From the NCBI GenBank assembly GCA_947476065.1, contig CANJPG010000020.1, positions 1 to 47,608 on the forward strand: a stretch of DNA of 47,608 nt. The letters run 5' to 3'. Under the pieces are notes generated by a model that was given only the letters and a program-made list of their open reading frames with translations, made no database searches and was not told the DNA's origin. Below, one piece after another: positions 5,988 to 22,898 of this stretch. The DNA comes from Fidelibacterota bacterium (GTDB lineage Bacteria; Pseudomonadota; Alphaproteobacteria; Rhodospirillales; Rhodospirillaceae). The position numbers and the translations under genes were made by a program. Numbering within the stretch: position 1 is the first letter of the stretch; each line of letters opens with the position of its first letter.

Positions 5988-5989
5988 CG

Positions 5990-8614
5990 ATGACCGGCCA
6001 ACAGACTCCGCCCCTTACGCCGCAAGCCGTCCAGGCAAAGTTCCTGGAAGGCTGGGCCCTGCATCAACAAGGTCAGTTCGGACCGGCCTGGGGTATTTAC
6101 CAACAGGTGATCGCCGCCGCACCGCAGCACTTCGACGCTTTGCACCTGACCGGCATCATTGCCGCGCAGGCCCGTTTCTACGATCAAGCCGTGGAGCTCA
6201 TCGGCCGCGCCGTGCAGGTACAACCCGGCAACGCGGCGGCGCACTACAATCTCGGCAATACCTTCGGCGAGTTGAAACGCTATCACGAGGCCGTCGCCAG
6301 TTATGACCGCGCCATCGCGCTCGATCCGGCCTATGCCGATCCCTACAACAATCGCGGCAATGCGCTGTGGTCGCTGAAGCAATACAAAGCGGCCATTGAG
6401 AGCTTCGACAAAGCCATTGCGTTGAAACCCGACTACGCCGAGGCTTACACCAATCGCGGCAACGCCCTGCGCGACGACAAGGCGCTCGAGGCTGCCCTCG
6501 CGAGTTTCGACAAGGCCATCGCCCTGCGCCCGGCCTTTCCCGAGGCTTACAACAACCGCGGCAATGCCTTGCGTGACCTGAAACGCTATGACGAAGCGGT
6601 CGCCGACTACGACAAGGCGATTAGCCTGCGACCCGACTATGCCGAGGCCTACAACAACCGCGGCAACGCCTTGCAAAGCCTGAAGCGCCAGGACGAAGCT
6701 GCCGCCAGTTACGACCGCGCGATCCAATTGAAGCCGGACTATGCCGACGCCTACTACAATCGCGCGGTTTCGCTGAGATTCCTTAAGCAGCCTGCCGCCG
6801 CCCTGGAAAACTACAACCAGGCCGCTGAGCTCAGCCCCGACCGCGCCGAAGCCTTCCACGGCCGCGGACTCGCGCGGGCCGATCTAAAGGACTACATCGG
6901 CGCCATCGCCGACTACGACCGCGCTATCGAACTGAAGCCCGACTACGCCGAGGCCTACAACAATCGCGGCGCGGCCCTTGGCGATCTGCACCGTCACGCC
7001 GAGGCCATCGCCAGCTATGACAGCGCCATCGCCATCAAGGCCGACTATCCCGAGGCCTACAATAACAAAGGCGTCGCGCTTAAAGAGTTGAAGCAGGATG
7101 AAGCTGCGCTCGCCAGCTACGATAAGGCCGTGGAACTCAATCCAGACTCCGCCGAGGCCTACAACAACCGCGGCATTCTGCTGGGCGATATGCGGCGCAA
7201 TGCCGAAGCCGTCGCAAGCTACGCCCGCGCGCTGGAGATCAACCCCTCATATGCCTTTCTCTTTGGCTCGCTCTTGCATACCAAGATGCACATCTGCGAT
7301 TGGCGCGGCGTCGAGGCCGATGTCGCGACGCTGAAGGCGAAGATCGCCCGGGGCGAACAGGCCGCGTCGCCATTCCATGTTCTCGCACTGATCGACGACA
7401 CCGACACACAAGTCAAATCCGCGCAGATTTGGACGCAAAAGGAACGCCCGCGCAATCCGGCGCTGGGTCCGGTGCCGCGTCCGCCGCGCCACCAGAAAAT
7501 CCGCGTCGGCTATTTTTCCATGGACTTCCGCAACCATCCGACGTCGCTGCTGCTGGCCGGCGTGATCGATGCCCACGACCAAGACAAGTTCGACACCTAT
7601 GCCTTCTCCTACGGCGTTGATACCCAGGACCGGATGCGCAAGCGTATGGAAGCGGGCTTCGGCAAATTCTTTGATGTCCGCGGCGTCTCTGACATCGAAG
7701 CCGTCAGTCTGGCGCGCGAATGCGAGCTGGATATCGCCATTGACCTCGCCGGCTATACCAATGACTCGCGCACCGGCATTTTTGCCCTGGGGGCCGCGCC
7801 GATCCAGGTGAACTACCTGGGTTACCCGGGCTCGATGGGCGCGGACTATTACGACTACATCATCGCCGATAGCGTCGTGGTGCCCGACGACCAGCGGCAG
7901 TTCTATGCCGAAAAAGTCGTGCAGATGCCGTACAGCTATCAGTCGAACGATATGACGCGGCATGTGGGCGAGCGCGTCATCACCCGCGCCGAGCTGGGTC
8001 TGCCCGCGGACAGTTTTGTCTTCTGCTGCTTCAACAATAATTTCAAAGTTACACCGGATGTCTTCGGCGTGTGGATGCGCATCCTGAAACAGGTGCCCAA
8101 AAGCGTGCTGTGGCTGTTCGAGGACAACGCCGCCGCTGCCGACAATCTGCGCCGGGAAGCCGAGCATCACGGCATCGATGCCGGCCGTCTCGTTTTCGCC
8201 GGGCGCGTGACACACGGCGACCACCTCGCCCGCCACCGCGCCGCCGATCTGTTCCTGGATACGGCGCCCTACAATGCCCACACGACTGCCAGTGATGCGC
8301 TGTGGGTCGGCCTGCCGCTGCTGACATGTCCCGGGCGTTCGTTCCCCGCGCGCGTCGCCGCCAGTATTTTGGGCGCGTTGCAGATGCCCGAGCTGATCGC
8401 GGACTCCTGGGCGGACTATGAAGCCAAGGCCGTAATCCTTGCTCAAAACCCGCTGATGCTTGCCGACATCCGTCAGAAAATCGCCCGCAACCGCGTGGCC
8501 GCACCGCTTTTCAACGCGCGGCTATTTGCGCGCCATGTCGAAGACGCCTACCGGCAGATGTTTGAACGCCATCACGCCGGCCTGCCCCCCGATCACATTA
8601 AGGTCGCGCCGTAA
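5990..8614 (+). CDS. TPR / O-GlcNAc transferase-like protein (GT41), third copy
   Basis: An 874-residue protein, the longest of the array, with about twelve near-canonical TPR units (repeated AEAYNNRGNAL and YDRAIALKPDYAEAY types) over residues 1-430. The catalytic half contains GYFSMDFRNHPTS (OGT H498 position), APIQVNYLGYPGSMG, FCCFNNNFK (K842 position) and donor loop YNAHTTASD. Unlike copies one and two it keeps the histidine of the OGT NGHTTG motif, so its donor pocket looks more like true OGT. The ATG at 5990 lies two bases after the upstream TAA; an earlier in-frame codon inside the previous gene was rejected. It ends with the usual GLPPDHI tail. Predicted cytoplasmic protein O-glycosyltransferase. 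Confidence 0.93.
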   Translation: MTGQQTPPLTPQAVQAKFLEGWALHQQGQFGPAWGIYQQVIAAAPQHFDALHLTGIIAAQARFYDQAVELIGRAVQVQPGNAAAHYNLGNTFGELKRYHEAVASYDRAIALDPAYADPYNNRGNALWSLKQYKAAIESFDKAIALKPDYAEAYTNRGNALRDDKALEAALASFDKAIALRPAFPEAYNNRGNALRDLKRYDEAVADYDKAISLRPDYAEAYNNRGNALQSLKRQDEAAASYDRAIQLKPDYADAYYNRAVSLRFLKQPAAALENYNQAAELSPDRAEAFHGRGLARADLKDYIGAIADYDRAIELKPDYAEAYNNRGAALGDLHRHAEAIASYDSAIAIKADYPEAYNNKGVALKELKQDEAALASYDKAVELNPDSAEAYNNRGILLGDMRRNAEAVASYARALEINPSYAFLFGSLLHTKMHICDWRGVEADVATLKAKIARGEQAASPFHVLALIDDTDTQVKSAQIWTQKERPRNPALGPVPRPPRHQKIRVGYFSMDFRNHPTSLLLAGVIDAHDQDKFDTYAFSYGVDTQDRMRKRMEAGFGKFFDVRGVSDIEAVSLARECELDIAIDLAGYTNDSRTGIFALGAAPIQVNYLGYPGSMGADYYDYIIADSVVVPDDQRQFYAEKVVQMPYSYQSNDMTRHVGERVITRAELGLPADSFVFCCFNNNFKVTPDVFGVWMRILKQVPKSVLWLFEDNAAAADNLRREAEHHGIDAGRLVFAGRVTHGDHLARHRAADLFLDTAPYNAHTTASDALWVGLPLLTCPGRSFPARVAASILGALQMPELIADSWADYEAKAVILAQNPLMLADIRQKIARNRVAAPLFNARLFARHVEDAYRQMFERHHAGLPPDHIKVAP

Positions 8615-8651
8615 CGGTTTTGCGACGGCCGGCATCAGGGGGTTAGACTCC

Positions 8652-8678
8652 GGGGCGCCAGCCCCATATGCTTGGGGC
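8652..8678 (+). promoter_or_regulatory. Competing hairpins abutting the ppnN start codon
   Basis: Three short complementary segments precede the ATG at 8679: ggggc (8652-8656), gcccca (8661-8666) and tggggc (8673-8678). The middle segment can pair with the first (4-base loop) or with the third (6-base loop). The second hairpin ends one base before the start codon and would block initiation. This is seen in the sequence; a switching role is inference. Confidence 0.3.
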
Positions 8679-10124
8679 ATGTCTGCACAGACCTCTGAAC
8701 AAATGGACGAAGGCGGCGCTGTCGTCCTCCCGTCGGCTCAACCCAAGGCGGTCGTCGAGGCCACCGAATTCGTTGACGCCCGTGTCGCGCCGCGCGGCAG
8801 TCTCGAAAACCTGTCCCACGAAGAAGTCGCCCAATTGCTGAGCCGCGGTCAGGGCGGCCTCTATCCCTTGTTCCGCCAGTGTGCTTTGGCCGTCCTCAAC
8901 TCCGGCAGCTATAGCGACGATTCCCGCGCGCTGTTCGAGAAATATCGCGAGTTCGAGCTGAAGATTGTCCAGCAGTCCTGGGGCATCAAGCTCGAGATGA
9001 CCCAAGCGCCCGGCATCGCTTTCGTCGAAGGCGAGATGATCCGCGGCGTCAAGGAGCACCTGTTCGCGGTGCTGCGCGATATCGTCTATATCGCCAACGA
9101 GATTGTCGAAAGCGGCCGCTTCGATCTGGCCGACCCCGACGGCATCACCAACGCCGTGTTCTGCATCCTACGCAACGCCGGCGTGCTCGACACCAAGGGC
9201 CAGCCCGATCTGGTGGTCTGTTGGGGCGGGCATTCGATTCCGCGTGAGGAATACGATTACACCAAGAAGATCGGCTACGAACTCGGCCTGCGCTCGCTCA
9301 ACGTCTGCACCGGCTGCGGCCCCGGCGCCATGAAAGGCCCCATGAAGGGGGCCACCATCGGGCACTCCAAGCAGCGCATCTCGTCAGGCCGCTACGTCGG
9401 GCTGACCGAGCCCGGCATCGTCGCCGCCGAGCCGCCCAATGCCATCGTCAACAACCTGGTGATCCTGCCCGATATCGAAAAACGCCTGGAAGCCTTCGTG
9501 CGCATGGCCCATGGCGTGATCATTTTCCCGGGCGGCGTCGGCACCACCGAGGAAATCCTCTATCTGCTCGGCATCCTGCTCGATCCCGCCAATGTTGATG
9601 AGCCCATGCCGTTGGTGCTAACCGGGCCGGCCTCGTCGGCGGCTTACTTCAAGCAAGTGGATGAGTTCATCGGGCTGACGCTGGGACCGGAAGGCCAGAA
9701 GCGCTATCGCATCATCATCGACGATCCGGTCGCCGCCGCCCGCGCCATGGTCGACGGCCTGGCCCGCGTACGCCAACACCGCACCGCCACGGGGGATGCG
9801 TATAATTTCAATTGGAACCTCGCCATCCCCAAGGGCTTCCAGGCGCCATTCCCAGTCACCCACGAAAGCGTCGCCGGGCTCGAGCTCAGCCTTGATCAGC
9901 CCGTTCACGAACGTGCGGTCAATCTGCGCCGTATGTTTAGCGCCCTGGTCGCCGGCAACATCCGTGAGCCTGTCGTCCACGAGATTGAGACGCGCGGCCC
10001 CTTTGAGATCAGCGGCGACAAACGCCTGATGCAGACTCTGGACGCACTGCTGGCGACCTTCGTCGCCCAGAACCGCATGAAGCTGTCGGGCGAATATAAG
10101 CCGGTCTATCGCATCAAGGCCTAA
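8679..10124 (+). CDS. ppnN: Pyrimidine/purine-5'-nucleotide nucleosidase (LOG family, PpnN/YgdH)
   Basis: A 481-residue protein, close to the roughly 450 residues of E. coli PpnN, with the same three-part layout: N-terminal DUF4478-type region, central LOG/lysine-decarboxylase-like Rossmann domain and C-terminal DUF3412-type region. The diagnostic PGGVGTTEE motif, which binds the nucleotide phosphate and holds the catalytic Glu, is present near residue 285. VVCWGGHSI and CTGCGPGAMKGPMKGA are also typical. The enzyme hydrolyses the N-glycosidic bond of nucleoside 5'-monophosphates, and in E. coli is tuned by (p)ppGpp. The start is the ATG at 8679; the frame is open further upstream but that stretch does not resemble the family. 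It stands alone between the glycosyltransferase array and the next locus. Confidence 0.93.
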   Translation: MSAQTSEQMDEGGAVVLPSAQPKAVVEATEFVDARVAPRGSLENLSHEEVAQLLSRGQGGLYPLFRQCALAVLNSGSYSDDSRALFEKYREFELKIVQQSWGIKLEMTQAPGIAFVEGEMIRGVKEHLFAVLRDIVYIANEIVESGRFDLADPDGITNAVFCILRNAGVLDTKGQPDLVVCWGGHSIPREEYDYTKKIGYELGLRSLNVCTGCGPGAMKGPMKGATIGHSKQRISSGRYVGLTEPGIVAAEPPNAIVNNLVILPDIEKRLEAFVRMAHGVIIFPGGVGTTEEILYLLGILLDPANVDEPMPLVLTGPASSAAYFKQVDEFIGLTLGPEGQKRYRIIIDDPVAAARAMVDGLARVRQHRTATGDAYNFNWNLAIPKGFQAPFPVTHESVAGLELSLDQPVHERAVNLRRMFSALVAGNIREPVVHEIETRGPFEISGDKRLMQTLDALLATFVAQNRMKLSGEYKPVYRIKA

Positions 10125-10249: not shown

Positions 10250-11218
10250 GTGCCCGCCAACGACGCCCTTTGGTATACCGCCCCCGGTCAGGTCGCCCTG
10301 CGCCCGGCTGAGCCAGCCGCGCGCGGCAACGGCGACGTCACCATTGCGGCGCAGTTCTCCGGAATCAGCCGCGGCACCGAACGGCTGGTCTTCGGCGGGC
10401 GGGTGCCGGCCAGCGAATACCAACGCATGCGCTGCCCCCACCAAGCCGGCGACTTCCCCTTTCCGGTGAAATACGGCTACGCCCTGGTCGGCGTGGTCGA
10501 AGAGGGACCGGCCGTGCGCTTCGGCCAACCGGTTTTTCTGCTGCATCCTCACCAGCGCCAAGCCACGGTACCCGCAACCGACGTGCATGTGCTGCCCACA
10601 GGTCTGCCGCTGCGCCGGGCGGCTCTGACCGCCAACATGGAAACCGCGCTCAATGTCAGCTGGGATTCGGGGGCCGCACCCGGCGACCGCATTCTCATCG
10701 TCGGGGGCGGCGTGCTCGGTCTGCTGATCGCGGGATTGCTCGCGCGCGTCCCGGGCACTGAAGTGACCGTCGCCGACATCGACCCCACACGCGCCGAGGT
10801 GGCCGCCAAACTAGGTGCGGCCTTCGCGCTGCCGGCCAACGCGCCCTGCGATCAGGACGTCGTCATCCACACCAGCAGCACGGCGGCGGGCCTCGCGACC
10901 GCCCTTGGCGCGGCAGGCATGGAAGCCACCGTGGTCGAAGCCAGCTGGTACGGTGATGCGGCCGTCGCGGCCCCATTGGGCGAAGCTTTTCACGCGCGCC
11001 GTTTGCGGCTGATCTCGTCGCAGGTTGGCGCCATTCCGCCCGTCCGGCAGCCGCGCTGGACCTATGCCCGGCGCATCGCCAAGGCGCTCGATCTGCTCTG
11101 CGATGCGCGCTTCGATGCGCTGATCACCGGCGAGGTTGCTTTTGCCGATGCGCCGACCATGCTGCCCAAAGTTTTTGCCGATTCATCCGGTCTGATGACC
11201 GTGCTGCGCTACACTTAA
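10250..11218 (+). CDS. Zinc-independent MDR-family dehydrogenase (BchC-like)
   Basis: A 322-residue medium-chain dehydrogenase/reductase. The substrate half contains SGISRGTERLVFGGRVP, the form seen in BchC-type enzymes. The catalytic zinc ligands are gone: no Cys in the GxCGTD position, and the usual GHE reads GYA. No four-Cys structural zinc loop is present. The coenzyme half has LIVGGGVLGLLIAGLLA, a nucleotide-binding GxGxxG, followed by an acidic VADID end that favours NAD(H). The start is a GTG at 10250 with GGATGGAG upstream. It opens a run of four tightly spaced genes (PTPS-like, glycosyltransferase, methyltransferase), so it probably oxidises or reduces an intermediate of the same pathway. 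Substrate unknown. Confidence 0.8.
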   Translation: MPANDALWYTAPGQVALRPAEPAARGNGDVTIAAQFSGISRGTERLVFGGRVPASEYQRMRCPHQAGDFPFPVKYGYALVGVVEEGPAVRFGQPVFLLHPHQRQATVPATDVHVLPTGLPLRRAALTANMETALNVSWDSGAAPGDRILIVGGGVLGLLIAGLLARVPGTEVTVADIDPTRAEVAAKLGAAFALPANAPCDQDVVIHTSSTAAGLATALGAAGMEATVVEASWYGDAAVAAPLGEAFHARRLRLISSQVGAIPPVRQPRWTYARRIAKALDLLCDARFDALITGEVAFADAPTMLPKVFADSSGLMTVLRYT

Positions 11219-11237
11219 ACCCAACAAGGATCCCCGC

Positions 11238-11636
11238 ATGTACGCCGTTGAAGTCCGCGACCACGTCATGATTGCCCACAGCATCAAGGGTGAGGTCTTC
11301 GGCCCCGCCCAGAAGCTGCACGGCGCCACTTATGTCATCGACGTGCGTTTCCTGCGCCGTGAGCTCGACGAAAACGACATCGTCGTGGACATCGGCTTGG
11401 CCACCGATACGGTGAAAGCAACGCTGGCCTCCATCAACTACAGCAATCTCGACGAACATCCCGACTTTCGCGGCCGCCGCTCCACCACCGAAGCCGTCGC
11501 CAAGTGGGTCTTCGATAAAATCAAAGCCGCCATCGCCGCCGGCAAACTCGGTGCGGGCGCCAGCGGCCTTGCAGGCTTGAAGATCACGCTGCACGAATCC
11601 CACAACGCGCTGGCGTCCTTTGAGTCGGACCTCTAG
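11238..11636 (+). CDS. PTPS/QueD-fold (6-pyruvoyl-tetrahydropterin synthase-like) protein, degenerate active site
   Basis: A 132-residue tunnelling-fold protein of the PTPS/QueD family. His14 and His28 (in KLHGATY) match two zinc ligands, and the C-terminal LHESHNALASFE carries the pterin-anchoring Glu. The usual LHGHxY motif is LHGATY, so the third zinc ligand is Ala30. The catalytic Cys normally four residues before that motif is Ala24. A standard QueD or PTPS reaction is therefore unlikely. The protein may act on a different pterin-like substrate, use another metal arrangement, or have a binding role. It lies 19 bases after the MDR dehydrogenase and two bases before the glycosyltransferase start. 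The family call is firm; the reaction is open. Confidence 0.8.
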   Translation: MYAVEVRDHVMIAHSIKGEVFGPAQKLHGATYVIDVRFLRRELDENDIVVDIGLATDTVKATLASINYSNLDEHPDFRGRRSTTEAVAKWVFDKIKAAIAAGKLGAGASGLAGLKITLHESHNALASFESDL

Positions 11637-11638
11637 CA

Positions 11639-12685
11639 GTGCCTGACGTCTGGTTTGCGGTACCAGGCGACCTGGCGACGCTGACCGGCGGCTACGCTTA
11701 CGCACGGCGCCTGATGGCGGCGTTGCCGGCTGCCGGGTGGTTTGCCCATCACGTACCTCTGCCCGCAGGGTTTCCCAACCCCGGCGCCGACGAACTGCAA
11801 ACCACTGCGGATATATTCGCGTCCTTGAAGCCCGGAACCAATGTGCTGGTCGATGGCTTGGCCTTTGGCGCATTGCCGCCGACCTTGCTCAGCGACTGCG
11901 ACCTCAGCTTTACAGCGCTCGTGCATCATCCCTTGGCGGACGAGACAGGTATTTCTGCTCCCGATGCTGCGCGATTAAAGGCGGGTGAGCGCGCAGCCCT
12001 CGCGCTGGCCCAAAGTGTCGTGGTCACCAGCGCGCACACGGGCAAGACCCTGGCCGACCAGTACGGCGTGCCGCGCGATTGGATTTACCTCGCCGAACCG
12101 GGCACCGATGCGGCACCGCGTGCGGTGGGCAGCAGGACCGCCCCCAAGCTTCTCACTGTCGCCACACTCACCCACCGCAAAGCCCACGACGTGCTGATCG
12201 AAGGCCTCGCTCGTATCAAAGACCTCGCCTGGACGATCGATCTGGTGGGCAGCGCCGAACGCGACCCCGCCGTCACGGCCAAGGTCCGCGCGTTGATTAC
12301 CCAACACGGTCTTGAAGACCGCGTTGTACTGCGCGGCGAACTTCAAAACGCCGGTCTGGACGCGACCTACGCCGGCGCCGATATTTTTGTGCTGCCGTCG
12401 CGGCACGAAGGCTACGGCATGGTCTTCGCCGAGGCCCTGGCGCGGGGCCTGCCTGTCGTAGCCTGCGCCGCCGGCGCCGTGACCGATACCGTGCCTGACG
12501 GCACGGGCTTGCTTGTGCCGCCGGACGATCCCGATGCACTCTCGAACGCGTTGCGGCGTCTCTTGTCCAGCGAGGCCCTGCGCCGCAGTATGAGCGAGCG
12601 CGCCTGGGATCATGGCCGCTCCTTGCCGACATGGAGCGACACCGCCGCTCATGTCGCCGAAGCCCTGTGGGCGGCCGCGCCATGA
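11639..12685 (+). CDS. Glycosyltransferase family 4 (GT-B fold)
   Basis: A 348-residue GT-B glycosyltransferase. The N-terminal acceptor domain opens with a GGYAYARRLM loop. The C-terminal donor domain contains LTVATLTHRKAHDVLI and the GT4 E-x7-E block HEGYGMVFAEALARGLPVV, followed by a typical TGLLVPPDDPDAL tail. Enzymes of this family are retaining transferases that use nucleotide-activated sugars on small-molecule, lipid or polysaccharide acceptors at the cytoplasmic face. The start is a GTG at 11639, two bases after the upstream TAG; the stop overlaps the next ATG. Placement inside the pterin/pyrimidine-like gene group suggests it glycosylates that product, but this is inferred from gene order only. 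Confidence 0.87.
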   Translation: MPDVWFAVPGDLATLTGGYAYARRLMAALPAAGWFAHHVPLPAGFPNPGADELQTTADIFASLKPGTNVLVDGLAFGALPPTLLSDCDLSFTALVHHPLADETGISAPDAARLKAGERAALALAQSVVVTSAHTGKTLADQYGVPRDWIYLAEPGTDAAPRAVGSRTAPKLLTVATLTHRKAHDVLIEGLARIKDLAWTIDLVGSAERDPAVTAKVRALITQHGLEDRVVLRGELQNAGLDATYAGADIFVLPSRHEGYGMVFAEALARGLPVVACAAGAVTDTVPDGTGLLVPPDDPDALSNALRRLLSSEALRRSMSERAWDHGRSLPTWSDTAAHVAEALWAAAP

Positions 12686-13506
12686 GTTTTTCACCCGCAT
12701 GGCTGGCTTTGCGCGAACCGGCGGACAGCGCCGCACGCAATCAAGAGGTGCTCGCCGCCTGCGCCCAGCACTTCGCGGGCCGGGCCGACATCAAGGTCTG
12801 CGACTTGGGCGCCGGCACCGGATCGTCGCTGCGCGCCTTCGCTGAACTTCTGCCGCCGACACAGCATTGGACTCTGGTCGATCACGATGCCGGCAATCTC
12901 GCGGCGGCGCGGGCCGCCCTTGCGGCATGGGCCGACGAAGCCACTGACAGTAGTCAACTGGTTTTGAAGCACGGCGGCAAAACCATCACCGTCCAGACCA
13001 CGGTGCGTGACTTCGCACAGGCTCCCGTCTGCTGGCCCGAAACGACCGACCTTGTCACGGCATCGGCGCTTTTCGATCTGGCGTCGGCACCGTGGATAGC
13101 GCGCTTCACCGCGGCGCTGTGCGCGCAAAAAATTCCCTTGCTCGCGACCTTGACCGCCAATGAGACGATCACCGCCGTACCCTCCCATCCGCTCGATACA
13201 AAAGTCATCGCGGCGTTCCACGCCCATCAGACGAGCGACAAGGGTTTCGGACCTTCCGCCGGCGCGCAGGCTACGGCCATCTTGGAGCAATCATTGAAGG
13301 CCGGGGGTTACACGCTGACGACCGGCGATAGTCCGTGGCGTCTCGCGCCGTCGGAGCTTTTGCGCGCGACAACCGAGGGCATGGCCGCCGCGGTGTCCGA
13401 AACCAAAGCCGTCGCCGCCGATGACCTGGCCGCGTGGCTGAACCACCAACGCGAAAAAACGTCTCAACTGACCATCGGCCACCGCGACGTCTTTGCGCGG
13501 CCCTAA
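12682..13506 (+). CDS. Class I SAM-dependent methyltransferase
   Basis: A 274-residue protein with a Rossmann-type methyltransferase core. Motif I is VCDLGAGTGSSLRAF (near residues 42-56), the acidic end of strand 2 is TLVDHDAGN, and motif IV-like DLVTASALFDLAS follows. The start is the ATG in the ATGA overlap with the glycosyltransferase. The TAA stop overlaps the stop of the convergent cytochrome b561 gene. It is the last gene of the plus-strand dehydrogenase, PTPS-like, glycosyltransferase, methyltransferase unit, so an O-, N- or C-methylation of the shared product is the simplest role. The acceptor cannot be told from the sequence. Confidence 0.8.
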   Translation: MSFSPAWLALREPADSAARNQEVLAACAQHFAGRADIKVCDLGAGTGSSLRAFAELLPPTQHWTLVDHDAGNLAAARAALAAWADEATDSSQLVLKHGGKTITVQTTVRDFAQAPVCWPETTDLVTASALFDLASAPWIARFTAALCAQKIPLLATLTANETITAVPSHPLDTKVIAAFHAHQTSDKGFGPSAGAQATAILEQSLKAGGYTLTTGDSPWRLAPSELLRATTEGMAAAVSETKAVAADDLAAWLNHQREKTSQLTIGHRDVFARP

Positions 13507-14048
13507 TGCTTGGGCAGCATCCGCTTCAAGGTAGCGTCTTTGTGGATGAAGTGGTGAAACAGGCCGGCGCCGATATGAACGGCCAGTAGCGCACATAATG
13601 TCAGCGCCAGGGCCGCGTGCAGCGGCAGCAGCACGTCGGCGGTCTCTTTATTCTTGGCCAGGATCATCGGCATGTTGAAAAGCCCGAAGACCGAGATCTG
13701 CGCGCCGAAGGCCGACGTACCGGCCCAGCCGACCAGCGGCACGACAAACAATAAGATATAGAGCGCGGCATGGGTGACCTGGGCGGCGCGCTCTTGCCAC
13801 GCGGGCATGGGCAGCATCGGTGGCGGCGGTGAATATAGTCGCCAGAGCAGGCGTCCGCCGGTCAGGGCGAGAATCAACGCACCGAAAGACCGGTGCAGAT
13901 CGAACAGCTGATTTTGCAGGGGCCCCTGTCCGACGTTCAGCATCGTGATGCCCAGCGTCACGCCGGCCAGCACACACAGGGCCGAGACCCAGTGAAGAAT
14001 CTGCGCCGGCAGGCGATAGCGTATGAGGGGAGCCGCGGACTCAGTCAT
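13503..14048 (-). CDS. Cytochrome b561 family membrane protein
   Basis: A 181-residue four-helix membrane protein with haem-ligand histidines typical of bacterial b561: ILHWVSA in helix 1, FDLHRSFG in helix 2, and LLPLHAALAL plus LAVHIGAG near helices 3-4. The family moves electrons between the quinone pool and a periplasmic or membrane partner. The start at 14048 (MTESAAPLIRYR) was chosen because it follows the upstream reductase stop by overlap (ATG and TGA share an 8-base stretch). An upstream in-frame ATG at 14090 lies inside that gene. Co-transcription with the RibD-type reductase suggests it supplies or drains electrons for the same pathway, although b561 genes also occur as free-standing units. 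Confidence 0.88.
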   Translation of the reverse strand: MTESAAPLIRYRLPAQILHWVSALCVLAGVTLGITMLNVGQGPLQNQLFDLHRSFGALILALTGGRLLWRLYSPPPPMLPMPAWQERAAQVTHAALYILLFVVPLVGWAGTSAFGAQISVFGLFNMPMILAKNKETADVLLPLHAALALTLCALLAVHIGAGLFHHFIHKDATLKRMLPKH

Positions 14049-14835
14049 GCAATTCACAATCGAACAGAACGTCGCCGCCCGGCAACGCAAACGAACGCGC
14101 CCGCGGCCTGATGGCCTGATCGAGGCGTGCGATCTCGGGAAGATTAAGGCCCGTGGGGCCGGAGCCGATGATAAGCGGAGCCGTCATGACATGGAGCCTA
14201 TGCAAACAGCCGGCCTGCAGGAAGCGCGAAAGCGTATCAGCCCCACCTTCCACCAGAATGTGCTTGAGGCCCCGCGCGGCCAGCGCCGCCAGAATCCCCG
14301 CAGGCGCTACCCCCCCCGCCGTCGCCGGCAAACCGACGTGCTCGACGTGTGCGGGCGTCGATGGCCGATGGTTGCCAAAGACAATGCATTGGGCACCGTC
14401 TTCGGCCAGACATCTTGCGGTTGCCGGCAGACGGCCCTTGAGATCAATCACCACGCGCGCCGGCTGCGGGGTGTCGGGCCGCAGGGTTGCACGCCGCACC
14501 GTCAGCTGAGGATCGTCGGCCACGACCGTGCCGACTCCGACCACCACCGCGTCGACCAAAGCCCGCAGGCGGTGCAGGTGAATAAGGGCGGCGTCGCCGT
14601 TGATGTAATGGGAGTGCCCGGAAGCCGTGGCGATTCGGCCATCAAGGGATTGCCCTAATTGTCCGATCACGAACTGTTGATGGCGTGGGACCCCGACCAA
14701 AGGGCCGTAAATCGGCCATAGAGTATTGTCAGAAAGACTGCCGGGGTTGGAAAGGGTCTCAACGCAACCAGCAGATGCAGCCAGTACCGCAGACCATTGC
14801 GGAGTGTCCCGATCCCAGTCCACAATGGAGTCCAT
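14041..14835 (-). CDS. RibD C-terminal-type pyrimidine reductase
   Basis: A 264-residue protein of the RibD reductase / dihydrofolate reductase-like fold. Diagnostic blocks are QSLDGRIAT, the following VDAVVVGVGTVVADDPQLT, and near the C-terminus HILVEGGADTLSRFL. There is no RibD deaminase domain; about 55 N-terminal residues of unknown role precede the fold. Relatives reduce the ribosyl group of 5-amino-6-ribosylamino-pyrimidinone phosphate with NADPH, or related pterin/pyrimidine substrates. The start at 14835 leaves 62 bases to the divergent GTP cyclohydrolase II gene. The cyclohydrolase makes precursors of exactly this chemical type, which makes a shared pathway likely. Whether the step belongs to riboflavin or another product is unresolved. 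Confidence 0.85.
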   Translation of the reverse strand: MDSIVDWDRDTPQWSAVLAASAGCVETLSNPGSLSDNTLWPIYGPLVGVPRHQQFVIGQLGQSLDGRIATASGHSHYINGDAALIHLHRLRALVDAVVVGVGTVVADDPQLTVRRATLRPDTPQPARVVIDLKGRLPATARCLAEDGAQCIVFGNHRPSTPAHVEHVGLPATAGGVAPAGILAALAARGLKHILVEGGADTLSRFLQAGCLHRLHVMTAPLIIGSGPTGLNLPEIARLDQAIRPRARSFALPGGDVLFDCELHD

Positions 14836-14897
14836 GACGATATTCTTACGTGATTTGGAGTGGGCCGCCCAGGCGGCCCTGAACAGACCGACCACAC
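14836..14897. promoter_or_regulatory. Divergent intergenic region with perfect inverted repeat
   Basis: This 62-base spacer separates the minus-strand RibD-like/b561 unit from the plus-strand GTP cyclohydrolase II gene and must hold both promoters. It contains a perfect palindrome, gggccgcc (14862-14869) and ggcggccc (14872-14879) with loop ca. It could be a shared operator or an RNA hairpin in either leader. No clear -10/-35 pair is visible. Confidence 0.35.
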
Positions 14898-16025
14898 ATG
14901 CCGAATGAAGATGTAAAGATTGGTACCGTCGATGGTGACTTGGCAAGGTGGTTTGGAAATCCCGCCCGCCTGAAAGTCCAGCGGGCGGTAAGCGAACTGC
15001 GGGCCGGCCGCCCCGTCCGCCTCGTCGGCGACGACGGCGCGAGCCTGACGGTTGCCGCCGCCGAAATGCTGGCCGGCGAACGCATCGCCGCCTGGCACCG
15101 CGCCACCGGCGGCGCGCCCGGTCTCGTATTACCCGCACCCCGACTTGCCCACCTGGGCGTCGACGTCAGCGTACCGTCCTATGTGTCCTTGAGCGGTTTG
15201 GTGGCCGATGAGATCGACGCCATCCTGCTGGCCGTCGAGCCGCAGGTTCCGGTGTTCGAGCATCGCCCCGCCGGTGCGTTGGAAGCCACCGCGCTGGAAC
15301 TGGTCAAACGCGCCTATCTCCTGCCCGCCGTCGTCGTGCTGCCGGCAGCCGCCGGTGAGCAAACCTCACTCGCCGAAGTGGATGCCGCGGCGGTTGCCAA
15401 TTACCACGAACAGTCGGCGCGGGATTTGACGATCGCTGCCCGCACGCGCGTGCCACTGGCCGAAGCCACCGATGCCGAGTTTGTCATTTTTCGCGGCGGC
15501 GACGGCCTGCATGACCAAGTGGCCATCGTCATCGGTCAGCCGCTACCCCATGAGCCGGTTTTGACGCGCCTGCATTCGGCGTGCCTGACCGGCGATCTGT
15601 TTGCGAGCCTCAAGTGCGATTGCGGCGACCAGCTGCGCATGGCGGTCGGCGAAATCGCCGCCGCCGGCAGCGGCGTGCTGTTGTATCTCGATCAGGAAGG
15701 CCGCGGCATTGGCCTGCTCAACAAAATGCGCGCCTACGGTTTGCAGGCCCTCGGCCACGATACGATGGATGCAGACGCTGTGCTCGGTTACGGCCCCGAC
15801 GAACGGCGCTATGCAGTTGCCGGCGCCATGCTGGCGCTGTTGGGCTTCCGGCGCATTACCTTGATGACCAACAATCCCGGCAAGATCACGGCGCTGGAAG
15901 ATTTCGGCGTCAATGTTGTCGGTCACCAGCGCATTATCGGCGCGGTCAATCCGCACAATCATAACTATCTGACGACCAAGGCCTTGCGTGCCGGCCACAT
16001 GCTGGGCGAGATCGCCGGCAAATAA
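14898..16025 (+). CDS. ribA: GTP cyclohydrolase II with degenerate RibB-like N-terminal domain
   Basis: A 375-residue protein. The C-terminal 200 residues are GTP cyclohydrolase II: RLHSACLTGDLFASLKCDCG holds the three zinc cysteines, YLDQEGRGIGL the catalytic Arg and a Tyr at the position of E. coli RibA Tyr105, and TNNPGK the phosphate-binding block. The residue before QEGR is Asp where most RibA proteins have Arg. The N-terminal 170 residues resemble a RibB (DHBP synthase) domain but lack the acidic DDEDRENEGD-type active site (here VGDDGASLTVAA), so RibB activity is unlikely. The reaction is GTP to diamino-ribosylamino-pyrimidinone phosphate, formate and pyrophosphate. It may serve riboflavin or the product of the surrounding locus. 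It faces the creatininase gene, with stops four bases apart. Confidence 0.88.
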   Translation: MPNEDVKIGTVDGDLARWFGNPARLKVQRAVSELRAGRPVRLVGDDGASLTVAAAEMLAGERIAAWHRATGGAPGLVLPAPRLAHLGVDVSVPSYVSLSGLVADEIDAILLAVEPQVPVFEHRPAGALEATALELVKRAYLLPAVVVLPAAAGEQTSLAEVDAAAVANYHEQSARDLTIAARTRVPLAEATDAEFVIFRGGDGLHDQVAIVIGQPLPHEPVLTRLHSACLTGDLFASLKCDCGDQLRMAVGEIAAAGSGVLLYLDQEGRGIGLLNKMRAYGLQALGHDTMDADAVLGYGPDERRYAVAGAMLALLGFRRITLMTNNPGKITALEDFGVNVVGHQRIIGAVNPHNHNYLTTKALRAGHMLGEIAGK

Positions 16026-16029
16026 ATCT

Positions 16030-16797
16030 CTAGGTTTGCGGCCAGGGTGCGGCAGCGAGGTCGCGCAACAGCGCGAGCAGAGACTCGGCTGCGTGGTCGG
16101 TCAAGGCCGCGCCAAGTTCGGCTGTCGCAAGATCCGGGCGTCCAATCCAACCGCCGTCTTTGCCGCCGGCCAAATCATCAAGCTTCCAGCCCCAAGCGAT
16201 GGGTCCATTAGGAAATAATCCCGGCGCCGGCGTACTTGCCGCGCGCGCGGCGCGTTTGTCTTTCACCACCAGCTGCGGCGCGAGATGCATCAATACCGAA
16301 GTCTCGATCCAGCCGCCGTGCACATCACCAGCGACCGACGCCGGCGGCGTGACACTTTGCGGCAAACCAAAATCCAGCCAATGGGCGCTTGCCGCCAGCA
16401 TGCCGAAGCGTGTTCGCAGTTTCAGCGCGGCGATGGACGCAGCGGCCACGTTGCCGCCGTGGCCGTTGAAAAACACCACGCGTTTGACGCCGCATTTCGC
16501 CAGGCCCGCGCCGCAATTCACCATGGCGGCGATCAGCTCTTCCGGCTCCTGACTGAGTGTGCCGGCGCGGTCGGCGTGTTCGGCCGAGGCGCCGAGCCAC
16601 AGAAGCGGTAACCGCAGATAGCTCGCGCCGCTCTTGTCCAGCGCTTGCGCCCGGTCGAGAAGACCTTCGGCGATGAAGCCGTCGGTTCCCAACGGCAGGT
16701 GGGGTCCGTGAGTCTCGACCGCGCCCAAAGGAATCACCGCCACCGCGTCGGGACGATGCGCGGAGTCTTGGGTCTGCTGGTCGAAGCGGATGAACAC
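16030..16797 (-). CDS. Creatininase-family amidohydrolase
   Basis: A 255-residue creatininase-fold metal hydrolase. Metal ligands are visible: Glu28 and His30 in GAVETHGPHLPLGTD, Asp39, His113 in FNGHGGN, and the Glu in GDVHGGWIETS. The family cleaves cyclic or linear amides. Named members include creatininase, the archaeal riboflavin formamide hydrolase ArfB and mycofactocin MftE. Next to GTP cyclohydrolase II and a RibD-type reductase, an ArfB-like deformylation or another C-N cleavage on a pyrimidine/pterin intermediate is plausible, but unproven. The start is GTG at 16797, 14 bases after the upstream sulfatase-like gene on the same strand. Confidence 0.88.
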   Translation of the reverse strand: MFIRFDQQTQDSAHRPDAVAVIPLGAVETHGPHLPLGTDGFIAEGLLDRAQALDKSGASYLRLPLLWLGASAEHADRAGTLSQEPEELIAAMVNCGAGLAKCGVKRVVFFNGHGGNVAAASIAALKLRTRFGMLAASAHWLDFGLPQSVTPPASVAGDVHGGWIETSVLMHLAPQLVVKDKRAARAASTPAPGLFPNGPIAWGWKLDDLAGGKDGGWIGRPDLATAELGAALTDHAAESLLALLRDLAAAPWPQT

Positions 16798-16811
16798 GGG
16801 GTGGACTGCCC

Positions 16812-18437
16812 TTATTGTTGTGGCTGCTGCGAGTAGGCGCCCAGTATGCGCGCGCGCAAGGCATCCATGGGCCAGGTAGGGCTCGACGCGCCCGGCTCCA
16901 TCCCCGCTGTCCAGGCCCCTTGTTCAAAGGCCGCCAGCAGCGCCGGGTCGCGCGCGATGATATGCACCGGCACATCGTGGCTGGCGTTCTCGCCGGCGAT
17001 GAAGGTCATCGGCTGATGATCACCAACAATGATAATCAACATGTTCTCGCGGCCGTAGGTGGTGACAAAAGACATCAGCGTCTGCAGGGAATAGTCGATG
17101 GACAGCGCATAATACTCCGCCACGCGTTTGGCATCGCGCCAAATTTCGTTGGCGGTTTCAGGCGTGCGCGCGGTGGTGAAGATACTGCCATCGCCGACGT
17201 CCTCCCAGGGCACCAGCTTGGGCAGAGGCGCCCACGGGATATGGCTGGAGACGAGGCCGATCACCGCCATGACCGGCGCGTGGTCAGGCGCAAGTTCATG
17301 CGCTTGGAAGGCCGACAGGGCATATTGGTCGGACATGGTGACGTAATCGAAGGGCTGCCCCTTATAGCCGAGGTTGGGCGCGGTATAGACCTGGGTGAAC
17401 TTGAAGTAGTCCACTTCCGGCCAGGCCATGGTGATTTCCGGCATCACCGTCACGGTGCGCCAGCCGGCGGTGTTGAAGTCGCTGATCAGCGTACCGCGGG
17501 CGCTGCGCAGCAGTTGGACATAGCGCTGCTGGTTGTCGACCCACAGACCCGACATGCTCGTGCTGTGGGCGAGATAACTCTCGCCGCCGAAGGTGGGCGA
17601 GGTCAGCCAGGCGCTGCGGGCATTGAAGCCCATTTCCGTCAGCGCGGCGTCGAACTTTTTCAACGTACCGCGGAGCAGCGGTGCATAGGCCGGATTATCG
17701 AGGGACGAGCGGCCATAGGATTCGACAAAGATCAGCAAGACATCATTGCCTTTGAGTCCGGCGAGCCGGCCCTCGGCCGGCAGATCGCGGAACGGATCTT
17801 CGAGCAGTTGCGCGCGGAACCGCGCGGCGTCTTCCACGCTTTGCGACATCGCCACCGCCTGATCGCGCATGAACAGGCTCGCATCCCAGGTGGCGGTGGT
17901 CCTCAGGGGCGGCAGGAAACCCAAAAGGGCCGCCGCGAAGGCAAAGCTTGCCACCGGCAGCTGCGCGATCCGCGGCACGCCAAAAGCAATCACCCGCGTT
18001 GCCCAGACAAAGACGCCGATACATAGCGCGATCACCGCGACGATGGCGACAACCGCACCGACGGCCGCCGCCATGCCAGCCCCTTTGCTTAGAGTGTCGA
18101 GGACGGTGGGCACCATCAAGGCATCGACCAGCGGGTTGAACGGCCGCGCAAAACCGAAATAGGCCGCGATATTCGCGAGCTTGAAAATCAGCATCAGCGA
18201 CAGCACGGCCACGACGATGCCCCGCAACAGGCCGCGCAGGCGTCCGGTAAAGGCCACCAGCGCCAGCACGATCACCGGCAATTCCAGCGGCAGGCGCGCA
18301 AAGGCCGGCCAGTCCATATCGTCCAGACGATCAGGCAAAACGAGAATGATGAAGATGATGGCGAAGGCCGCCAGCCAGCGCGCGGCGATCCGCACCGCCG
18401 AGTGCTCGGGGCGCCGGGCGAATTTGCGGACCTTCAT
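16812..18437 (-). CDS. Membrane sulfatase / LTA synthase-like phosphotransferase
   Basis: A 541-residue protein with about five hydrophobic helices in the first 200 residues and a periplasmic alkaline-phosphatase-fold domain. LLIFVESYGRSS gives the metal-ligand Glu and nucleophile region; IIIVGDHQPM is the late Asp-His metal motif. This is the architecture of the LtaS / phosphoethanolamine / phosphoglycerol transferase group, which cleaves a phospholipid head group outside the membrane and transfers it to an acceptor. Sulfatase activity cannot be excluded. The start is the ATG in an ATGA overlap with the CDP-alcohol phosphatidyltransferase gene; a lipid-linked step shared by the two is likely. 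No signal peptide is needed because helix 1 is the anchor. Confidence 0.85.
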   Translation of the reverse strand: MKVRKFARRPEHSAVRIAARWLAAFAIIFIILVLPDRLDDMDWPAFARLPLELPVIVLALVAFTGRLRGLLRGIVVAVLSLMLIFKLANIAAYFGFARPFNPLVDALMVPTVLDTLSKGAGMAAAVGAVVAIVAVIALCIGVFVWATRVIAFGVPRIAQLPVASFAFAAALLGFLPPLRTTATWDASLFMRDQAVAMSQSVEDAARFRAQLLEDPFRDLPAEGRLAGLKGNDVLLIFVESYGRSSLDNPAYAPLLRGTLKKFDAALTEMGFNARSAWLTSPTFGGESYLAHSTSMSGLWVDNQQRYVQLLRSARGTLISDFNTAGWRTVTVMPEITMAWPEVDYFKFTQVYTAPNLGYKGQPFDYVTMSDQYALSAFQAHELAPDHAPVMAVIGLVSSHIPWAPLPKLVPWEDVGDGSIFTTARTPETANEIWRDAKRVAEYYALSIDYSLQTLMSFVTTYGRENMLIIIVGDHQPMTFIAGENASHDVPVHIIARDPALLAAFEQGAWTAGMEPGASSPTWPMDALRARILGAYSQQPQQ

Positions 18438-19207
18438 GCGCTGGGCACAGGAGCGGCGTGCACGGCACGCAGGCTCCACACCACGTCGGCGGCAAAGGAA
18501 TAGATCAGCGCCAGCAGAGCCGCGAAGGCGATGGCTTCACTCAGGGGCGGCGCGATGATCGGCGCCAGCTGCAGCGTCAGCGCGCCGCTTTGCACCACGC
18601 AGATGATCTTGCGGCGCTGGGACGGCGGCAGCGGCTGGGCGAGGGCCGGCCAGACATGTCCGGCGGCGATGAACAGATAACGCAGCGCGCCGCCGAGCAG
18701 CACCCAGGCGCCGGCCTTGCCTAAGGTCAATGCGACCACCGACAACAGCAGGATCAGCAGCGCGTCGGTTTCCATGTCGAAGCGCGCGCCGAAGGCCGAG
18801 ACCAAACCTTGGCGCCGCGCCACCGGACCATCGACGCCGTCCAAGAGTGTGACCGCCAAAATCATGGCGAAGAAACGCCAGGCAACCGACGGCTCGAGCG
18901 GCGTATCGGCGACGACGGTCTCCACGGCCAAGCCGGCAACAAGGCAGGTCAACATGAAGCGCACGAGCGTCAGCAGATTGCCCGTGCCGAGGCGGTCATA
19001 GGGGTGATAGGCGGCGACTCGCGCAATCACAACGACGCTGCCCACGAGATATGGGGCGAGGGTGCCGACTGCGAACCAGCCGCTGAAGGCGCCGGAGCCA
19101 ATCAAGACGGCGCAGCCACCGGCCAGCAGAGCAGCTCCGGCCGCTATCGATGTGGCCGCCGCACGCGTTAACGATTGAGCCCGCGTCGCAGGAATTAATG
19201 AAGCCAT
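18434..19207 (-). CDS. CDP-alcohol phosphatidyltransferase family membrane protein
   Basis: A protein of 257 residues (265 from an earlier ATG at 19231) with six or more hydrophobic helices. It carries the complete signature D-x2-DG-x2-AR-x8-G-x3-D-x3-D, seen as DGVDGPVARRQGLVSAFGAR followed by FDMETD. All four aspartates are intact, so an active enzyme is expected. It joins a CDP-linked alcohol to an acceptor alcohol at the membrane, as in phosphatidylglycerol, phosphatidylinositol or ether-lipid synthesis. The substrate here is unknown. A GGAGG lies 14 bases before 19207. It heads a three-gene minus-strand unit with the sulfatase/LtaS-like and creatininase genes. Confidence 0.87.
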   Translation of the reverse strand: MASLIPATRAQSLTRAAATSIAAGAALLAGGCAVLIGSGAFSGWFAVGTLAPYLVGSVVVIARVAAYHPYDRLGTGNLLTLVRFMLTCLVAGLAVETVVADTPLEPSVAWRFFAMILAVTLLDGVDGPVARRQGLVSAFGARFDMETDALLILLLSVVALTLGKAGAWVLLGGALRYLFIAAGHVWPALAQPLPPSQRRKIICVVQSGALTLQLAPIIAPPLSEAIAFAALLALIYSFAADVVWSLRAVHAAPVPSA

Positions 19208-19416
19208 GCGTCTATTTATAGCCTCCCGCATCGCGCGGGTCGGGAATTACAATAAAGATATAATATGCAGAATGAAGAAAGACTTAGGGTGAATTACCAT
19301 CTCTGCGAGCACAATAACGCTGGTCGGAGCGTTATAGAAACGCCAAGCCGGCACGAGGGTAGCATACCCGCACCCGCAGCGCGTCATTCTGTACACTCCC
19401 GTTGAGGCACCCAGCG
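19208..19416. promoter_or_regulatory. AT-rich divergent promoter region with operator-like inverted repeat
   Basis: This is the spacer between the minus-strand lipid-enzyme operon and the plus-strand macAB operon, clearly more AT-rich than its surroundings. A perfect 8-base inverted repeat with a 6-base spacer, ataacgct (19314-19321) and agcgttat (19328-19335), lies about 80 bases before macA and looks like a dimeric-repressor site. A TATAAT hexamer sits at 19259-19264 on the plus strand, without a good -35. No regulator gene is adjacent. Confidence 0.4.
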
Positions 19417-20880
19417 ATGTTCGAGCCTGCCAAAATCTCGCCGCAGAATTCAGCCAGCAAGTCGGCCTTCTCGACCGCGGTGAGCGCGAAGCGACCCAAG
19501 TGGCTGCTGCCGGTCGCCGGAGCCGTCGTCCTTCTCGCCGCCGGGCTAGGCACCTGGGCCCTTGTCGGACGCAGCGGACCCGCGATCACCGCCCTGACGC
19601 AGCCCGTCGCCCTCGGCACGATTGAAGACGCCGTTACGGCGCTCGGCACCCTGCAGCCGCTGCAGTACGTCGATGTCGGCACCCAGGTGTCGGGCCAGCT
19701 GAAAGTGCTGCACGTCGACTACGGCGCCACGGTGAAAAAAGGCGACCTGCTCGCCGAAATCGACCCGACCATATATCAATCCCGCGTCAGTGCCGACCAG
19801 GCCTCGCTGCTCAACCTGCGCGCCCAGCTTGCCCAGCGTCAGGCGCAGCGCACGCTGGCGGAGTTGCAGTTCAAACGCCAACAGGAATTGCTGAAGGAAA
19901 ACGCCACAAGCCAGGACGCCTTCGACAGCGCCACTTCCACCCTGAAGGTCGCTGTCGCCCAGGTAGCCCAGCTTGAAGCGCAGATTCAGCAGACCGAATC
20001 GACGCTGTCGGGCGACATGGCCAACCTGAACTACACCAAGATATTCGCGCCCATGGACGGCACCGTGGTCAACCTGATCGCGAAACAAGGCCAGACCCTT
20101 AACGCCAACCAGACCGCGCCGATCGTGCTGCGCGTCGCCGACCTCGACACCATGACCGTCTGGGCCCAGGTCTCTGAGGCCGACGTCCCCAAGCTTAAGG
20201 TCGGCATGGAAGCTTATTTCACCACGCTCGGCACCTCCGACAAGCGCCGCTACGGCAAGCTGCGCCAGATCATCCCGACGCCCGACGTCGTCAACAACGT
20301 CGTGCTCTACAACTGCCTGTTCGATGTCGAGAACCCCGACGGCGATCTGCTGACCCAGATGAGCGCCCAGGTGTTCTTCGTTGTTGCCTCGGCGCGCAAC
20401 GTGCCGGTGATCCCGGTAACGGCGCTGCACCCGATCCGCGGCGGCGCAGCTGGTGGCCCAGGTGCGCGCGGCCCGCGCAACGCCGATCAAACTGCCGGCG
20501 CGGCGCCGCCCGCAAATCCCCCGGTCACGCCGCCGGCTGGTCCACAACAAGCCGCTGCCGATCCCACTGCGCCCGCCGGCGCAGCGCAGGCGGGCCGGCG
20601 CGGTCCACGCGGCGAAGGCCGTCGCGGCCCCAATGCCTCCACCGTCGCACCCGTGCGTTACAACGTGCACGTCATGCAGGACGGCGACATAGTCACGCGC
20701 GAGGTCGAAATCGGCGTCATGAATCGTATGTCGGCAGAAGTGAAGTCCGGCCTGCAACCTGGTGAGGAGGTTGTACTAGACGGCGGCCTCCAGCAATCGC
20801 GCCAACCCGGCCAGCAGAACAACCAGCGCGGCCCCGGCGGACCGTTCGGCGGACCGGGCGGCGGCGGGCCAAGGATCTAG
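19417..20880 (+). CDS. macA: MacA-like periplasmic adaptor of an ABC efflux pump
   Basis: A 487-residue membrane-fusion protein. An N-terminal anchor helix (near residues 32-50) is followed by a lipoyl half-motif (VDYGATVKKGDLLAEID), a long alpha-hairpin (residues 120-200, QLAQRQAQRTLAELQFKRQQ), a second lipoyl half (IFAPMDGTVVNLIAKQGQTL) and a beta-barrel. Residues of about 350-420 are a Gly/Pro/Ala/Arg-rich low-complexity insert, and the C-terminus is also Gly/Pro-rich. Both are unusual in MacA. The adaptor bridges the MacB ABC transporter and an outer membrane channel and stimulates ATP hydrolysis. The start is ATG at 19417 with GAGG nine bases upstream; an in-frame TTG 15 bases earlier is less likely. 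First gene of macA-macB-outer membrane factor-msrA. Confidence 0.92.
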   Translation: MFEPAKISPQNSASKSAFSTAVSAKRPKWLLPVAGAVVLLAAGLGTWALVGRSGPAITALTQPVALGTIEDAVTALGTLQPLQYVDVGTQVSGQLKVLHVDYGATVKKGDLLAEIDPTIYQSRVSADQASLLNLRAQLAQRQAQRTLAELQFKRQQELLKENATSQDAFDSATSTLKVAVAQVAQLEAQIQQTESTLSGDMANLNYTKIFAPMDGTVVNLIAKQGQTLNANQTAPIVLRVADLDTMTVWAQVSEADVPKLKVGMEAYFTTLGTSDKRRYGKLRQIIPTPDVVNNVVLYNCLFDVENPDGDLLTQMSAQVFFVVASARNVPVIPVTALHPIRGGAAGGPGARGPRNADQTAGAAPPANPPVTPPAGPQQAAADPTAPAGAAQAGRRGPRGEGRRGPNASTVAPVRYNVHVMQDGDIVTREVEIGVMNRMSAEVKSGLQPGEEVVLDGGLQQSRQPGQQNNQRGPGGPFGGPGGGGPRI

Positions 20881-20889
20881 GGCGCAACC

Positions 20890-22896: not shown

Positions 22897-22898
22897 AC

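Follow-up and report, generated by a model that had tools for sequence, protein, structure and literature searches.

A conserved bacterial gene cluster around a PTPS-IV protein as a candidate route from GTP to a glycosylated, methylated pyrimidine- or pterin-like compound

We analyzed a stretch of 47,608 nucleotides from Fidelibacterota bacterium (assembly GCA_947476065.1, contig CANJPG010000020.1, positions 1 to 47,608; hereafter the window), which is contig C20 of a 3.26-Mb host genome in 158 contigs. Ten adjacent open reading frames (ORFs) at positions 10250-19231 are grouped in four transcription units, as a preliminary description of the locus had stated. Unit 1, on the plus strand, encodes a medium-chain dehydrogenase-like protein (MDR), a PTPS-like protein, a GT4 glycosyltransferase and a methyltransferase (MT). 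Unit 2 (minus strand) encodes a stand-alone RibD C-terminal-type reductase (RibDc) and a cytochrome b561-type protein (b561), unit 3 (plus) a GTP cyclohydrolase II (GCH2), and unit 4 (minus) a CDP-alcohol phosphatidyltransferase-family protein (CDPAP), an LtaS-like protein and a creatininase-family amidohydrolase (CREA). On balance, this locus is likely to be the form that a widespread biosynthetic cluster, centered on PTPS-IV (a subfamily of COG0720), takes in alphaproteobacteria. From GTP, the cluster probably makes a methylated compound of pyrimidine or pterin type that carries a sugar and may be placed in the membrane. If real, the pathway would add a GTP-derived metabolite route to those of riboflavin, folate, biopterin, deazapurines and F420, and would give a function to PTPS-IV proteins, now annotated as a queuosine enzyme in public records.

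We used the PTPS-like protein as query in 199 sampled genomes of the host's order. It was matched in 23 of them, 19 times strongly (own genome included; 52-100% identity), and its distribution in the order is patchy. For the 18 remaining strong loci and for one of the four weak ones, the neighboring sequence was fetched and compared with the window proteins by tblastn. MDR, PTPS, GT4 and MT were each found in all 18 strong loci, together with RibDc in 15, CREA in 13, GCH2 in 11, CDPAP in 10, the LtaS-like protein in 8 and b561 in 7; L045, the weak locus, yielded only a 29% PTPS match. A pattern scan in which each bacterial and archaeal species was represented by one genome yielded at least 594 matches, at least 582 of them encoding a relative. 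The best 80 of these 582 were kept and are labeled in their records as Alpha-, Beta- and Gammaproteobacteria and Actinomycetes, with two single exceptions. With 18 further loci from a phylum-wide sample, the collection comprised 116 loci, or 112 distinct ones after removal of 4 duplicates.

Family profiles were made from the first 98 of the loci, seeded with the window proteins (and hence partly circular), and applied at an E-value of 1e-5. With loci selected through PTPS, and with short contigs among them, the resulting neighbor counts are lower bounds. Near PTPS in the 112 distinct loci, we found MDR in 111, GT4 in 110, MT in 102, RibDc in 84, CDPAP in 68, GCH2 in 65, CREA in 48, the LtaS-like protein in 25 and b561 in 24. 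A flippase-like membrane protein (LPG_synthase_TM, PF03706; profile of five sequences) is a recurrent extra neighbor, present in 53 loci and giving no profile match in the window. Searched with the same profiles, 20 control stretches of 20 kb at hand-picked positions in carrier genomes contained GT4 twice, MDR, GCH2 and CREA once each, and none of the other seven families. Gene order is conserved as well: with duplicates included, MDR and PTPS are adjacent on one strand in 115 of 116 loci, MDR-PTPS-GT4 in 110 and MDR-PTPS-GT4-MT in 87. One open frame joins GT4 and MT in 16 ORFs, and CDPAP and the LtaS-like protein in one. The near-constant core thus consists of about four genes, while b561 and the LtaS-like protein are optional members. 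The ten genes had been expected to be conserved together, and they are, although the core that hardly varies is smaller.

Of 299 genomes sampled from the host's phylum, 19 (own genome counted) have a PTPS-IV marker that scores above 100 bits, and the 18 other carriers whose surroundings were fetched all have MDR and a GT4 nearby. In the class of Streptomyces, where the marker alone was scored, 37 of 246 genomes exceeded this value (center genome counted). Plasmids carry the cluster, too. One stretch of the pAt plasmid of an Agrobacterium strain encodes a sulfatase, a flippase-like protein, a CDP-alcohol transferase, RibA, a dehydrogenase, PTPS, GT4, a methyltransferase, RibD and a cytochrome b, with no creatininase among its annotated genes, and annotated plasmids of Methylosinus, Streptomyces fungicidicus and Thiodictyon hold subsets of the cluster. 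In a Streptomyces anthocyanicus plasmid, the cluster is absent around a 45%-identical PTPS gene. Loci L061 (labeled Acidobacteria) and L049 (labeled Candidatus Marinimicrobia) are single records and may be misplaced contigs; PTPS and GCH2 of L049 are 76 and 74% identical to those of the window, perhaps reflecting a misbinned contig or a recent transfer.

The distribution of the outer members could also be read as two units that lie side by side and are co-expressed, one for an envelope lipid or glycan (CDPAP, LtaS-like, flippase-like, GT4) and one for a pyrimidine (GCH2, RibDc, CREA, PTPS), with no common product. LtaS-like, b561, CREA and CDPAP genes are patchy among the loci, CDPAP and the flippase-like protein go together (both in 49 of 116 loci, p = 2e-12), and b561 is rarely found where the flippase-like protein is present (both in 2 of 116, p = 5e-6), these and the following p values being uncorrected for kinship. 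Against this reading, MDR-PTPS-GT4-MT keep one strand and order in 87 of 116 loci, GT4 is fused to MT in 16 ORFs, CREA follows the LtaS-like gene in the window, and CREA co-occurs with GCH2 (p = 5e-7) as well as with CDPAP (p = 5e-4). We consider two separate units rather improbable.

The PTPS-like protein itself (11238-11636, plus strand; Pfam PTPS, 3.7e-21) carries the PTPS-IV signature FGPAQ at positions 21-25, as do all 112 cluster members, which were gathered by patterns, one of them including FGPAQ, or by similarity. His-14, His-28 and Ala-30 are likewise present in 112 of 112 proteins, giving HGA instead of HGH, and Ala-24 occupies the position of the catalytic cysteine. The third zinc ligand and the catalytic cysteine of PTPS enzymes are thus gone. 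The PTPS-I (QueD) motif CxxxHGH is accordingly absent, and the QueD model gave 40.8 bits against a cut-off of 89.25; the PTPS-II and PTPS-III motifs CxxxxxHGH and ExxHGH are absent as well, HGA being invariant. The closest solved chain is SCO6650 (PDB 3d7j, 7.2e-60). This Streptomyces coelicolor protein reportedly contains no zinc and has no PTPS activity but retains a pterin-type pocket.

An ordinary PTPS/QueD enzyme with unrelated neighbors would agree with public annotation, which reads 6-carboxytetrahydropterin synthase, a queuosine biosynthesis term, in the majority of 20 listed plasmid records. The invariant HGA, the conserved neighborhood and a second PTPS-family protein with the three-histidine pattern on host contig C49 argue against this, and we have rejected it on the altered motif and the cluster context; its probability appears negligible. 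A further PTPS variant is carried by genomes of family f56 (e.g. L147-L156), most of them small, and reaches about 41-53 bits with the PTPS-IV profile. F420 and riboflavin have a common ribitylaminopyrimidine precursor, which would be in line with PTPS-IV and its neighbors making or modifying coenzyme F420. Among 19 alphaproteobacterial PTPS-IV carriers, however, a single one has a CofH match that reaches the cut-off (374.1 bits), and the host genome has a match of only 24.3 bits. In favor of F420 there is an unpublished mention in the paper that lists PTPS-IV (PMC5041015, consulted in excerpt). On the evidence of these alphaproteobacterial carriers, we have rejected the F420 role for this host and regard it as very improbable for the cluster.

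The PTPS-IV proteins of the literature resemble the cluster protein in their FGPAQ motif and in having GCH2 and RibD_C neighbors: a 2017 study gives the signature and a network node of 561 sequences with GCH2 (PF00925) and RibD_C (PF01872) neighbors (PMC5445326). The excerpts of the two papers name no creatininase, CDP-alcohol transferase, GT4, methyltransferase or flippase in a cluster, and propose no product beyond the F420 remark. The locus had been presented as undescribed. This is not so for the PTPS-IV subfamily and its GCH2/RibD neighborhood, reported in 2016-2017 and with the homologous SCO6650 in the PDB. No assigned product was found in the openly licensed papers covered, which is not proof of absence.

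GCH2 (14898-16025, plus strand; GTP_cyclohydro2, 1.8e-49) retains its zinc cysteines C54, C65 and C67 as well as E92, Y105, D126, R128 and K154, in the numbering and with the residue roles of E. coli RibA. It scored 213.6 bits against NF001591 (cut-off 148) and 193.2 bits against TIGR00505, short of the cut-off of 205.85. The three zinc cysteines are present in all 65 cluster copies; among the 59 examined first, E92, D126, R128 and K154 are invariant and Y105 occurs in 46. Altered active sites had been ascribed to several proteins of the locus, which is correct for the PTPS-like protein and fits MDR, but does not apply to GCH2.

The host has a separate set of riboflavin genes, nrdR-ribD-ribE-ribBA, on contig C21 and a second, intact stand-alone GCH2 on contig C17. 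The window GCH2 is therefore not the only one of the genome, an objection raised beforehand, and we rejected a sole or relocated riboflavin GCH2 on these grounds. The GCH2 half of the host RibBA (L127:9759-10889, C21) lacks the zinc cysteines, and the host may depend on the stand-alone enzyme of C17. With the bacterial riboflavin pathway (RibBA, RibD, RibE), the cluster shares the GCH2 and RibD-type reductase families, but RibB, RibE, RibH and a deaminase are not among the ten genes, in agreement with the earlier view that this is not simply a riboflavin operon. It could still be a dedicated locus for flavin supply or modification, in which the second GCH2 and the reductase feed riboflavin and the core modifies not a pterin but a flavin or lumazine. 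GCH2 and RibD are indeed early riboflavin enzymes, the riboflavin pathway of Sinorhizobium is modular (PMC9478397, in excerpt), and with the cysteine-less RibBA extra GCH2 copies could matter to the host. The intact C17 enzyme, the missing RibB, RibH and RibE, and a reductase without deaminase domain speak against it. A PTPS-family protein is also not known to take part in flavin synthesis, and we consider a flavin locus unlikely.

The GCH2 phylogeny bears on the precursor. In a midpoint-rooted tree of 77 rows (L056, see below, excluded; three rows labeled as search matches are the cluster copies L182-L184), the proteobacterial cluster copies make up a single clade of 45 rows (support 95/84) that excludes the host C17 copy. 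Cluster copies from Streptomyces, Actinomadura and Amycolatopsis fall among other actinobacterial GCH2s, and those from Micromonosporaceae do so at a further, separate place. Judged from this tree, the cluster GCH2s have at least three origins. In Micromonosporaceae, a very divergent RibD-type reductase replaces the usual one (branch 3.82, bootstrap not settled); the host's own RibD forms a long branch in the reductase tree, where its placement is unreliable. The several origins of GCH2 and reductase suggest that what they supply, an early riboflavin-type pyrimidine, is the precursor for the core genes.

CREA (16030-16797, minus strand; Creatininase, 3e-56) may act next to GCH2. A tyrosine is found at the E. 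coli Tyr-105 position in 52 of the 65 cluster GCH2s, 28 with and 24 without a creatininase nearby. The other 13 have methionine (9), histidine (2), isoleucine (1) or leucine (1), and a creatininase is nearby in all but the leucine case, L056 (12 of 13; Fisher p = 0.011, L056 counted, kinship not corrected). A Tyr-to-Met change makes GCH2 stop at the formylated product. The association thus suggests that the cluster creatininase is a formamide hydrolase, serving as deformylase where GCH2 lacks Tyr-105. Such a split of ring opening from deformylation is known from archaeal GCHIII and ArfB and from rhizobia, where BrbF is a creatininase-family formamidase for the formylated GCH2 product (PMC9478397). 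The curated ArfB model gave CREA 27.4 bits against a cut-off of 180. The MftE (mycofactocin) model TIGR03964 gave 115.3 bits, below its cut-off of 172. CREA has little in common with the second creatininase of the host (20% identity over 135 columns).

The analysis shows that the cluster is conserved, that the GCH2 signature is intact and the PTPS site altered, that the cluster GCH2s have several origins, and that the host has riboflavin genes elsewhere. A pathway can be outlined on this basis, of which the first step in vivo, all later reactions, their order and the product are what we infer. The dedicated GCH2 would open GTP to the formylamino- or 2,5-diamino-6-ribosylamino-pyrimidinone 5'-phosphate, and the creatininase would remove formate where GCH2 does not. 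The RibD-type reductase would then yield the ribityl form, which the non-canonical PTPS-IV protein and the zinc-less dehydrogenase may reshape or cyclize toward a pterin-like ring. GT4 would attach a sugar and MT a methyl group. CDPAP, the LtaS-like protein and, in other loci, the flippase-like protein could finally provide lipid attachment or placement in the envelope. Enzyme family and recruitment lend good support to the putative chemistry as far as the pyrimidine, glycosylation and methylation are likely from the families, and lipid linkage, backed by three membrane families, is a guess. The glycosylated, methylated, possibly lipid-linked pyrimidine or pterin suggested earlier remains a reasonable reading of the putative product, strengthened by the several GCH2 origins, the GT4-MT fusions and the flippase-like neighbor. 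Speculatively, and with rather low probability, the product might represent a new class of redox compounds anchored in the membrane. In that case, the CDP-alcohol transferase would link a glycosylated, methylated pterin or ribitylpyrimidine to a phospholipid, the LPG_synthase_TM-type protein would flip it or the LtaS-like protein would handle it, and in alphaproteobacteria the neighboring b561 would reduce or oxidize it.

Several points weigh against this pathway. Near the core, GCH2 is missing in 47, RibDc in 28 and CREA in 64 of 112 loci (some contigs being short). All three are absent nearby in 17 of 98 loci, which would have to use housekeeping enzymes, and GCH2, RibDc and CREA may be suppliers rather than parts of the cluster. 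Family distances of RibDc correlate only weakly with those of MDR (Spearman 0.26) and PTPS (0.21), and a midpoint-rooted tree does not prove the direction of GCH2 recruitment. Loci L166 and L168 contain no detected MT, and their GT4 does not adjoin PTPS. L056 breaks the Tyr-105/creatininase pattern; it aligns poorly at this position and looks like another GCH2-like protein. The pattern, moreover, reflects few independent changes, about three, 9 of the 12 loci being from Streptomyces. The window GCH2 keeps its tyrosine and should deformylate on its own, so its creatininase may have a different role. Lipid linkage is argued from family membership alone, and the openly licensed literature yielded no metabolite, mutant or assay for the cluster.

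Other pathways that start from GTP are akin to the proposed route. The cyanobacterial tetrahydrobiopterin glucoside route proceeds through a PTPS-family step, a reductase and then a glycosyltransferase. It shares these enzyme types with the cluster pathway, but differs in using GTP cyclohydrolase I and a canonical PTPS. The pseudoiodinine cluster psdA-G likewise combines GCH2, a RibD-type protein and methyltransferases into a specialized GTP-derived product, and is related by its authors to toxoflavin synthesis (PMC9911603, in excerpt). It has WD-40, sulphatase-modifying-factor and glyoxylase/dioxygenase-family proteins, all absent from the ten genes of the window, and its seven-gene list, unlike our cluster, contains no PTPS, GT4 or creatininase. 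A pseudoiodinine-type cluster was thus rejected on gene content.

The family assignments of the remaining genes are borne out by Pfam and NCBIfam, weakly so for MDR, MT and the sulfatase-like protein, whose Pfam matches lie under the cut-offs. MDR (10250-11218, plus strand) has a weak ADH_zinc_N match and resembles BchC weakly (TIGR01202, 44.5 bits, cut-off 291.25). An alignment of 18 sequences contains no invariant cysteine of the kind expected in a catalytic-zinc signature, which fits the zinc-less dehydrogenase envisaged before. GT4 (11639-12685, plus) matches Pfam GT4 at 1.4e-30 and overlaps MT (12682-13506, plus) by 4 bases, as CDPAP overlaps the LtaS-like gene, both overlaps being read from ORFs with inferred start codons. 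A confident structure model of MT (pLDDT 95.1) matches class I S-adenosylmethionine-dependent methyltransferases; the 50 matches listed were generic (query-normalized TM of at most 0.59) and gave no hint of a substrate. RibDc (14041-14835, minus; RibD_C, 1.2e-39) and b561 (13503-14048, minus; PF01292, Ni_hydr_CYTB, 6e-30) have inferred starts, the b561 ORF reaching 14090. The LtaS-like gene (16812-18437, minus; start inferred, ORF to 18479) gave no NCBIfam match, 18.3 bits against Pfam Sulfatase (cut-off 25) and no PDB sequence match, and its product can be called membrane sulfatase-like only, related in kind to sulfatases and phosphotransferases. CDPAP (18434-19231, minus; CDP-OH_P_transf, 4.4e-15) belongs to the CDP-alcohol phosphatidyltransferase superfamily (PF01066, 56.8 bits, cut-off 22), and the CDP-OH signature D-x2-DG-x2-AR-x8-G-x3-D-x3-D is readable in its ORF. 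In loci L031 (18286-18930) and L033 (18322-18939), CDP-alcohol transferase stretches found by tblastn contain an in-frame stop codon.

The window had no matches in Rfam (gathering threshold) or in a tRNA search. Directly upstream of the cluster lies a gene for a PpnN-like nucleotide 5'-monophosphate nucleosidase (8460-10124; PF11892, PF14793, PF03641), which we do not count as part of it because it adjoins the cluster only in L028 and L047 (1 of 19 and 1 of 80 loci, respectively). Two genes that lie near each other, at 1718-4000 and 5927-8614, encode long TPR proteins that also have an OGT-like domain of glycosyltransferase family 41. On the other side, a MacA-MacB-outer-membrane efflux set (HlyD, MacB/ABC, OEP) adjoins the cluster at 19402-24323; its HlyD and ABC genes are kept beside the cluster in the close relatives L027 and L028. 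In L068 (7077-8903) and L205 (6079-7881), a GT2 gene of about 600 residues, annotated as MdoH in Methylosinus, is divergent from MDR, and other alphaproteobacterial loci have ORFs that resemble it in length and position.

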